Positions 55,705 through 58,190 of a stretch of DNA of 64,000 nucleotides are shown in pieces. This stretch comes from Amycolatopsis sp. WAC 01376 (GTDB lineage: Bacteria > Actinomycetota > Actinomycetes > Mycobacteriales > Pseudonocardiaceae). Every line of letters begins with the position of its first letter. Within the stretch, counting starts at the first letter, position 1. The DNA lies in contig NZ_QHKL01000007.1 of NCBI RefSeq assembly GCF_003947415.1, positions 124,001-188,000 on the forward strand, written 5' to 3'. The position numbers were made by a program, and so were the translations under genes. The notes under the pieces were generated by a model that saw nothing but the letters and a program-made list of their open reading frames with translations, was not told the DNA's origin and made no database searches.

Positions 55705-56874
55705 ATGGCTCAGGCACCGACGCGTGAGGACAAGTTCAGCTTCGGGTTGTGGACCGTGGGCTGGCAGGCGAACGACATGTTCGGCCCGGCGAGCCGGGCC
55801 CCGCTCGACCCGGTCGAAGCCGTGCACCGTCTTTCGGACCTCGGCGCCTGGGGAATCACCTTCCACGACGACGACCTCATCCCGTTCGGCTCTGCCGACG
55901 CGGAGCGCGCGCGGCATCTGAAGCGCTTCCAGGGCGCGCTCGACGAGACCGGTCTCGTCGTCCCGATGGTGACCACGAACCTGTTCAGCCACCCGGTCTT
56001 CAAGGACGGCGGCCTGACCAGCAACGATCGCGACGTCCGTCGCTACGCCCTGCGCAAGGTGCTGCGGAACCTCGACCTCGCCGCCGAATTGGGCGCGTCG
56101 ACGTTCGTGCTCTGGGGTGGTCGTGAAGGCAGCGAGACCGACGCGTCGAAGGACGTCCACGCGGCGTTGGACCGCTACCGCGAGGGCATCGACTTCCTCG
56201 CCCAGTACGTCATCGACCAGGGTTACGGCCTCCGGCTCGCGCTCGAACCGAAGCCGAACGAACCTCGCGGCGACATCCTGCTGCCGACCATCGGGCACGC
56301 GCTCGCGTTCATCTCCACGCTCGACAACCACGAGATCGTCGGCGTGAACCCCGAGGTCGGGCACGAGCAGATGGCCGGGCTCAACATCGTCCACGGCATC
56401 GGGCAGGCCCTGTGGCAGGGCAAGCTGTTCCACATCGACCTCAACGGCCAGCGTGGCCCGCGGTTCGACCAGGACCTCGTGTTCGGCCACGGCGACGTGT
56501 TGTCGTCGTTCTTCCTGGTCGACCTGCTGGAGCACGGCGGCTACGACGGGCCGCGCCACTTCGACTACAAGCCGCTGCGCACGGAGAACATGGACGGCGT
56601 CTGGGCCAGCGCCGAGGCCAACATGGCCAGCTACCTGCTGTTCGCCGAACGTGCCCGAGCGTTCCGTGCCGATCCCGAGGTGCAGGCCGCGCTCGACGCC
56701 GCGCTTGTCCCGGAGCTGGCGACGCCGACCCTCAACGAGGGCGAGACGGCGGCGGATCTGCTGGCGGACCGATCGGCGTTCGAGGATTTCGACCCGGACA
56801 AGGCGGCCGAGCGCGGTTACGGTTTTATCCGACTCTCCCAGCTGGCCCTCGAACATCTCACCGGGGCGCGCTAG
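55705..56874 (+). CDS. xylA: xylose isomerase
   Basis: This 389-residue enzyme isomerises D-xylose to D-xylulose and also D-glucose to fructose. It has the short actinobacterial class I form: His54 and Asp57 in TFHDDDL, metal Glu in [15 protein letters not shown] near 181, [15 protein letters not shown] and the [15 protein letters not shown] end. GGTGGAGG precedes the ATG. No xylulose kinase follows, since the next gene is convergent, so xylB must lie elsewhere. It is controlled by the divergent ROK repressor. Confidence 0.97.
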
Positions 56875-56894: not shown

Positions 56895-57650
56895 CTAAGC
56901 GACTTCCGGTTCGACGCCGAGGAAGGCGGCTCGCAGTCTGCGGATCCGGGCCCAGAACTCGGCCTCCCGGCCGGTCTCGAGAACACCGAGATACCCGCCC
57001 GGGACGACGCGGCCGACGAACGGACCGGAAGTCCATACCCGCCAGCCGCCCGTCGCGTCGTCACCCGAGGCGGACGCGGGATCGTCGGTCCCGCGTATCG
57101 CCGCGATCGGGCACGACAGCCGTGTCCTGGCCGGCCCGCGGTAGGTGTTCAGCAATTGGAGGTCGCCCAGCAGCAGATCCAGGGCGTACTCCCAGCTTTC
57201 GGGCGAATCGCGATAGCCCGCGACAGGGGTGAGCCCGGTGCGGCCGAACACCCGGCCGATGGCGGACGCGCCCGCCTTGGCGGTCTTCTCCGGCGAGCGC
57301 CGCTGCGGCGCACACGCGTCCACGACGATCAGCGCGCCCGGGGAGACGCCCAGCCGTTGAGCCGTTTCCAAGGCGACGAAGGCGCCCATTCCGAAACCGA
57401 TGATCACAGAGCGGGAAAACCAGGCCTTCGGTGTCGCGCCTGCCACGAGAGTGGCGAGTTCGTCGAGGGAGGACGCAGGCGTGTCCGCGAGCCGATCCCC
57501 GTGGCCGGGATACTCGACGCCCCAGACGTCCGCGTCCGCCGCCCCGGCAAGCGGACCGAAGGTCTGAAGCGTGCCGCCGGCGGGCGGAAACAGCAGGTGG
57601 CCGGGACCGCGACTGTCTGATGTGGACAGTGGAATGAATGCGGCCTTCAT
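56895..57650 (-). CDS. type II thioesterase homologue lacking catalytic Ser and His
   Basis: This 251-residue alpha/beta-hydrolase resembles type II thioesterases of polyketide and peptide synthases (LLFPPAGGTLQTFGPLAG at 19-36, VWGVEYPGHGDRL at 42-54). The nucleophile elbow, normally GHSMG, reads GFGMG at residues 85-89, so Gly87 replaces the catalytic Ser. At the place of the catalytic His the text is VPGGYLGVL, with Tyr221. The Asp in GTDD (188-191) is kept. It is probably inactive as an esterase and could be a binding or regulatory protein. No synthase genes are near. Confidence 0.82.
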   Translation of the reverse strand: MKAAFIPLSTSDSRGPGHLLFPPAGGTLQTFGPLAGAADADVWGVEYPGHGDRLADTPASSLDELATLVAGATPKAWFSRSVIIGFGMGAFVALETAQRLGVSPGALIVVDACAPQRRSPEKTAKAGASAIGRVFGRTGLTPVAGYRDSPESWEYALDLLLGDLQLLNTYRGPARTRLSCPIAAIRGTDDPASASGDDATGGWRVWTSGPFVGRVVPGGYLGVLETGREAEFWARIRRLRAAFLGVEPEVA

Positions 57651-57683
57651 GATCCGAAAGATACGCGCCGTTAACCCGAATGG

Positions 57684-57697
57684 GGTAACGGTTCGGC
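57684..57697 (+). promoter_or_regulatory. motif GGTAACGGTTCGGC upstream of the zinc-ribbon gene
   Basis: It matches the motif at 53933-53946 in 13 of 14 bases. It lies 116 bases before the zinc-ribbon start and 34 bases from the start of the divergent thioesterase homologue. Confidence 0.3.
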
Positions 57698-57812: not shown

Positions 57813-58190
57813 ATGAACACCACGACACTGGCCTCGACCACGCGGCTGAACCCGGTGGGCCGCACCCTGCCGGTTCTGCTGGCGATGGAGGACGACGCGG
57901 AGGACGTCGGCCGCCTGGCCCCGGACGACCGCCTGACCTGTCACGTGCACGGCCGCTGGATCCACCAGTGCGTCGCTTCGCCGCTGCACGTCAACCCGAT
58001 CACCCGGCACCGCTGGTGTCGTTCGTGCGCGACCGCGTTGACCGTTTCCGTCGACGAACTGTCCGGCGACGTCACGATGTCCTGTCCTCGCTGCGGCCAC
58101 GGCGAAAGCGCCGCCTCGGCCAAGCTGATCGCCGCGTGCCGGGCCAGCCTGGCGGCCGCTCGCCGTCACTCCGGCGCACGGGCCGCCTGA
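57813..58190 (+). CDS. zinc-ribbon protein
   Basis: This 125-residue protein has a Cys/His pattern: CHVHGRWIHQC near 49-59, WCRSCA near 74 and SCPRCG near 97, which gives one or two zinc ribbons. An Ala/Arg-rich helix follows. AAGGAG lies 6 bases before the ATG. Its function is unknown; such proteins may bind nucleic acids or act as partners. Its 3' end overlaps the convergent hydrolase gene by 25 bases. Confidence 0.78.
   Translation: MNTTTLASTTRLNPVGRTLPVLLAMEDDAEDVGRLAPDDRLTCHVHGRWIHQCVASPLHVNPITRHRWCRSCATALTVSVDELSGDVTMSCPRCGHGESAASAKLIAACRASLAAARRHSGARAA

Follow-up and report, generated by a model that had tools for sequence, protein, structure and literature searches.

Sequence comparison leads us to conclude that the thioesterase homologue encoded in the 64,000-nucleotide stretch of Amycolatopsis sp. 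WAC 01376 DNA analysed here (the window) is a maintained pseudoenzyme, and not the outcome of decay or error. This pseudo-TEII arose through duplication of a type II thioesterase (TEII) whose gene stands first in a five-gene A-PCP/halogenase/lyase cluster; the duplicate lost its catalytic Ser once, gained Asp111 once, and settled beside a xylose-isomerase-like gene (xylA). The overall reading that we modestly favour is that a former carrier-protein thioesterase has turned into a binding protein, which would act through its lid and pocket. The features of the locus are collected in Table 1.

Table 1. Features of the pseudo-TEII gene and its surroundings, in window coordinates.
Feature	Position	Strand	Remarks
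Pseudo-TEII gene, 251 aa, ATG start	56895..57650	(-)	Gly87, Asp111, Asp190, Tyr220
Nucleophile-elbow codon 87, GGA (Gly)	57390..57392	(-)	Gly in 19/19 orthologues (GGA, GGC or GGG); Ser in 16/16 paralogues
Codon 111, GAC (Asp), end of predicted strand before lid	57318..57320	(-)	Asp in 19/19 orthologues; Gly in 16/16 paralogues
Residues 105-176, end of predicted strand 106-111 and most of lid region	57123..57338	(-)	Strongest constraint within the protein
Codon 220, TAT (Tyr), at catalytic His site	56991..56993	(-)	Orthologues: Tyr 13/19, His 6/19
-10-like TATCTT, 7 nt before ATG, leaderless-type spacing	57658..57663	(-)	19/19 orthologues, at 6-7 nt (6 in one)
Imperfect dyad CCGTTACCCCATTCGGGTTAACGG	57668..57691	(-)	16/19 orthologues; related block upstream of closest catalytic paralogues
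Divergent neighbour, 125-aa zinc-ribbon-like protein	57813..58190	(+)	Beside the gene in 18/19 genomes
Convergent neighbour, xylose-isomerase-like TIM barrel (PF01261)	55705..56874	(+)	Marker of the syntenic locus

A preliminary description of this DNA had reported a TEII homologue with Gly87 in place of the nucleophilic Ser, and the homologue is real. The protein scores 65.8 bits in a Pfam profile search against PF00975 (Thioesterase; cut-off 26.4), and the eight distinct PDB sequences that it matches at E <= 0.001 are all type II-like thioesterases, RifR, TesA and the surfactin TEII among them (best match 6vap, E 2.2e-19; RifR, 3fla, E 7.7e-16). Its elbow reads GFGMG, without the GxSxG nucleophile of a type II thioesterase, and the site of the catalytic His reads GGYL; the Tyr described there is present, but it is residue 220 and not 221. 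The Asp and the fold motifs said to be retained are found as Asp189/Asp190 and FPPAGG, and the catalytic Asp that a type II thioesterase carries after strand 7 is Asp190 in every orthologue. According to an excerpt from PMC11298585, the acid of NRPS thioesterases usually follows strand 6, and that of RifR and RedJ follows strand 7; on a putative structural match, Asp111 and Asp190 would give the window protein acids at both places. An AlphaFold model computed with 11 close sequences was poor (mean pLDDT 57.9, below 50 in the lid).

Among 80 Amycolatopsis genomes searched, 19 (the window's own included) have a match at 80–100% identity, and 15 of the same 80 hold a total of 16 further copies at approximately 44–58% identity. 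At the level of the family, 29 of 390 genomes searched have a match at E <= 1e-28, and all 29 belong to Amycolatopsis, one of 46 genera covered. A pattern-based scan of 84,980 species, which takes one genome per species and reaches close relatives only, found 11 loci. Ten are close and belong to A. orientalis, A. keratiniphila, A. decaplanina, A. azurea, A. coloradensis, A. regifaucium, A. thailandensis, A. oliviviridis, A. pittospori and A. roodepoortensis, and the eleventh, from a Granulicella MAG, is weak at 37%.

The 19 orthologues occupy one shared locus, have the same length of 251 aa, and without exception carry Gly87, which places the absence of the catalytic residue well beyond one strain. 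The codon varies among GGA, GGC and GGG, and therefore the amino acid has been kept while its codon changed; in two orthologues the elbow reads AFGMG. It had been proposed that an alignment of orthologues would tell whether Gly and Tyr are conserved. This is the case for Gly but not for Tyr, with position 220 being His in six orthologues as it is in all 16 paralogues. Asp111 belongs to a set of five positions (87, 111, 168, 175 and 243) that are fixed differently between the 19 orthologues and the 16 paralogues. Relatives with an ordinary elbow and His, which the preliminary description would have taken as a sign of strain-specific change had they been orthologues, do exist (GFSMG and GGH), but they make up the paralogous clade at 44–58% identity.

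The dN/dS analysis recommended in the same description favours the conserved-pseudoenzyme side of the alternative that it had set against decay after a recent loss. Over the 171 pairs of orthologues (NG86), the median is 0.22 and the maximum 0.31, and none of the 19 genes has a stop, a frameshift or a change of length. With Gly87 in all of them, the conserved pseudoenzyme stands and the recent loss does not. By segment, dN/dS runs from 0.49 in the weakly constrained residues 1–40 to 0.05 in residues 136–176; the protein is under purifying selection, as a conserved pseudoenzyme should be. The ratio of lid dN to N-terminal dN has a median of 0.22 among the orthologues and lies below 0.5 in 168 of their 171 pairs, whereas among the catalytic paralogues (15 distinct sequences, the duplicate L070 being dropped) the median is 1.21 and only one of 105 pairs lies below 0.5; for the 13 close paralogue pairs the median is 1.34, with none below 0.5. 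The lid region is thus the most constrained part of the pseudo-TEII, which is not so in its catalytic relatives. At 0.21, the dN/dS of the gene is the second highest among six genes of the locus, the others being xylA (0.065), an SDR (0.11), a phosphotransferase-like gene (0.12), the zinc ribbon (0.16) and the neighbouring hydrolase (0.215).

The catalytic paralogues (L057-L072) have Ser, Asp and His intact, in GFSMG and GGH contexts, together with Gly111. All 16 head the same one-strand run of genes, which encodes the thioesterase, an A-PCP protein, an FAD halogenase, a Na+/H+ exchanger-like protein and a beta-eliminating lyase (Pfam assignments taken from one locus). The chemistry of this cluster is plausibly the halogenation of PCP-bound tyrosine or tryptophan, followed by release by the thioesterase and cleavage by the lyase, and its product may be a halogenated phenol or indole. 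The open-licence papers listed by a literature search included no obvious description of it. The cognate A-PCP (66–68%) occurs in five of the 19 Gly-clade genomes, and those five carry both types of thioesterase. The remaining 14, the window's genome among them, are without the cluster, as both its lyase and its cognate A-PCP are missing: A-PCP matches there reach at best 48% and fall on A domains that belong to different NRPS proteins, and in the window's own genome no lyase match was found at E <= 1e-60. Lyases of the cluster type were also seen at L114 in G004 (83%) and L113 in G049 (75%), with no close TE relative found nearby.

In a tree rooted by four ordinary TEIIs, the Gly clade forms one side of a branch with support of 100/99. 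Its nearest relatives are five Ser copies in orientalis-group genomes (100/98), which with this rooting fall within the Ser clade. When the tree is built without the columns for residues 87, 111 and 220, the change at each of them takes a single step, although the group with Tyr220 has modest support (74/77). The order of events read from the tree is that the loss of Ser and the gain of Asp111 occurred at the base of the clade, and that the replacement of His by Tyr came later and was partial.

The upstream region appears to share this ancestry. TANNNT is a -10 element, and directly upstream of the TATCTT hexamer lies the dyad GTTACCCCnnnCGGGyTAAC, which is recognisable at three or fewer mismatches in 16 of the 19 orthologues and has been lost in three, including the window's nearest relative. 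The five nearest catalytic thioesterases have the same block 331–380 nt upstream with 0–2 mismatches; L064 has it with three, L057 and L058 with four and the left half intact, and the other eight paralogue loci, at 4–7 mismatches, have no clear copy. Local alignment of the window's 60 upstream nucleotides with eight paralogue upstream regions gave scores of 36–61, against shuffle maxima of 29–32, and therefore the gene and its promoter probably moved together. In five cluster loci (L059-L062 and L068), a leader of about 300 nt separates the promoter block from the start of the thioesterase, and in some of them it contains a second dyad-like element, CTAAC...GTTAG; an Rfam search of five catalytic-cluster loci gave no match.

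Searched for in its own genome with as many as three mismatches allowed, the exact dyad occurs at a single site. A looser consensus gave 24 matches against seven for a reversed control; the idea of a dyad regulon was dropped, the two next-best sites not being followed by TATCTT, and no regulator for the dyad was found. A longer dyad pattern recovered none of the one expected site in this genome because the spacer of the window's copy is shorter than that of the pattern. A scan of the genus with a pattern derived from the promoters of the cluster returned no sites beyond the seven of those promoters; their recovery is circular, and only the lack of others is informative.

In 18 of the 19 genomes, xylA lies within about 3 kb of the pseudo-TEII gene, and in 13 of the 19 an epoxide-hydrolase-like gene, absent from the window, stands between the two. 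The exception is G002, where approximately 96 kb lies between xylA and the pseudo-TEII gene, and the latter is directly adjoined on the other strand by an NRPS frame of 2260 aa; at this locus (L053), a large insertion of about 96 kb that includes the NRPS frame separates the two genes. In four outgroup genomes (xylA at 88–90%), xylA and a ROK gene are present and the thioesterase and the zinc ribbon are absent from the 20 kb fetched. The zinc-ribbon-like protein, whose orthologue in L040 has no Pfam match, was considered as a functional partner and rejected: it is not beside the thioesterase in one of the 19 genomes, and 15 other Amycolatopsis regions have its orthologues with no thioesterase adjacent. 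The reported lack of a synthase cluster in the vicinity holds, as the nearest PP-binding match on the contig (E <= 0.001) starts at C24:327888, some 146 kb from the gene at C24:180898-181650. The gene is therefore not encoded together with a PKS or NRPS in the window, as a type II thioesterase would be, G002 being the exception among the orthologues.

Our preferred reading of a binding protein supposes that thioester hydrolysis has been lost, and that the old carrier-protein face, the lid and the pocket would bind a ligand without turnover. An excerpt from PMC11298585 places the lid of NRPS thioesterases between strands 6 and 7, in contact with the substrate. The ligand would most likely be an acyl or aminoacyl group, either bound to a carrier protein or free, which the protein could hold, shield or deliver, or whose presence it could sense, with the promoter region inherited from the cluster presumably still driving expression. 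The cognate A-PCP is missing in 14 of 19 genomes and therefore cannot be the general partner, but the window's own genome has 78 PP-binding matches, and so other carriers are possible partners. Against the binding reading stand the weak constraint on residues 1–40, a whole-gene dN/dS that is the second highest at the locus, and the loss of the dyad in three orthologues; the analysis found no partner or ligand. More speculatively, and we regard this as unlikely, the protein could be a stand-alone binder of an aminoacyl-carrier or free haloaromatic ligand that has kept the promoter of a lost haloaromatic amino-acid cluster, a retained sensor or protector through which A. orientalis-group strains would detect, or tolerate, a product made by only part of the group.

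Carrier proteins need not be involved at all. The protein might be a ligand sensor or receptor that signals through a partner, its pocket binding some free small molecule related to the cluster product, such as a phenol or an amino acid that is aromatic or halogenated. We hold this to be possible, if on the unlikely side. The persistence of the gene in the genomes without the cognate A-PCP, its distance from the nearest carrier domain, and the fixation of the extra acid Asp111 beside the old active site all point this way, as do the neuroligins, which according to an excerpt from PMC12931606 bind partners with an alpha/beta-hydrolase fold that has no catalytic serine; against it, no signalling partner is linked to the gene, the zinc ribbon being inconstant beside it and elsewhere not next to such a thioesterase. 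The strongly conserved lid, the two Asp sites, the intact PPAGG loop and the His kept in six orthologues could also suit a protein that has remained catalytic through a different mechanism, such as Asp111 with a bound water, or acyl transfer independent of Ser. This is improbable in our judgement, as His too is lost in the other 13, the elbow (GFGMG, or AFGMG in two) offers no other conserved nucleophile, and in the TEII LgnA, as stated in a part of PMC8748450, replacing Ser by Ala put an end to product formation.

Explanations that deny the protein any role fare worse. Slow decay, in which catalysis is gone and the protein is drifting to extinction, would account for a whole-gene dN/dS three times that of xylA and for the loss of His after Ser. 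It is nevertheless very improbable, since all 19 reading frames are intact, dN/dS in residues 136–176 is as low as 0.05, Gly87 has been kept through synonymous changes, and TATCTT is kept in every orthologue. As for a strain-specific mutation or a sequencing error, 18 further assemblies carry Gly at this position, ten of which were also retrieved under species names, and the three different codons that specify it across the 19 assemblies leave this explanation with a negligible chance.

A Gly at the elbow is not confined to this clade. From 74 other TEII-like genes picked from a genus search listing, 72 could be read, and of these 68 have Ser and four have Gly; elbow Gly has thus arisen more than once in the genus. 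Three of the four form one orthologous group in three orientalis-group genomes (L140, L166 and L175), with GHGMG and with His and Asp kept; in G024, the GHGMG gene lies near sensor-kinase-like and response-regulator-like frames. The fourth has GAGLG (L116/L156, G060:C1:4273677-4276100) and directly precedes an A-PCP-like protein that is stand-alone and roughly 600 aa long. Apparent replacements of His by Tyr in four ordinary TEIIs (39 of 40 read) were artefacts of pairwise alignment, His being present in the multiple alignment.

TEIIs are known for their housekeeping role on the assembly lines of NRPS and PKS systems. With the proofreading enzymes RifR, TesA and SrfA-D (PF00975), the window protein shares the Asp after strand 7, the PPAGG loop and the lid insertion, but it differs from them in lacking Ser, in having the additional Asp111, in having no PKS or NRPS beside it in the window and, in 13 of 19 orthologues, in having Tyr for His. 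The TEIIs of the five-gene cluster are its closest relatives, and the nearest of them share its promoter block; unlike the window protein, they have the catalytic motifs and Gly111 and stand at the head of a cluster. Inactive thioesterase domains are already known: in a part of PMC8748450, the TE0 of PacP (pacidamycin, A-T-TE0) is believed to be inactive as it lacks the typical triad. This domain, which we liken to the pseudo-TEII by its description in that part only, is fused within an NRPS protein, whereas the pseudo-TEII is stand-alone and away from carriers. The neuroligins, as described in the excerpt of PMC12931606, use a Ser-less alpha/beta-hydrolase fold for binding, but are eukaryotic proteins of a different family and fold branch and serve as an analogy only. 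None of the open-licence papers listed by our literature search deals with a stand-alone TEII in which Gly replaces the nucleophilic Ser, and a syntenically fixed, stand-alone pseudo-TEII looks like a new form of the inactive thioesterases already known.

With Ser lost in the ancestor of a group of species, His later lost in part and the lid region almost frozen, this clade constitutes a natural test of whether the lid and the carrier-protein face of a thioesterase are of any use without catalysis, and the related catalytic copy present in some of the same genomes provides a ready control for the pseudo-TEII.
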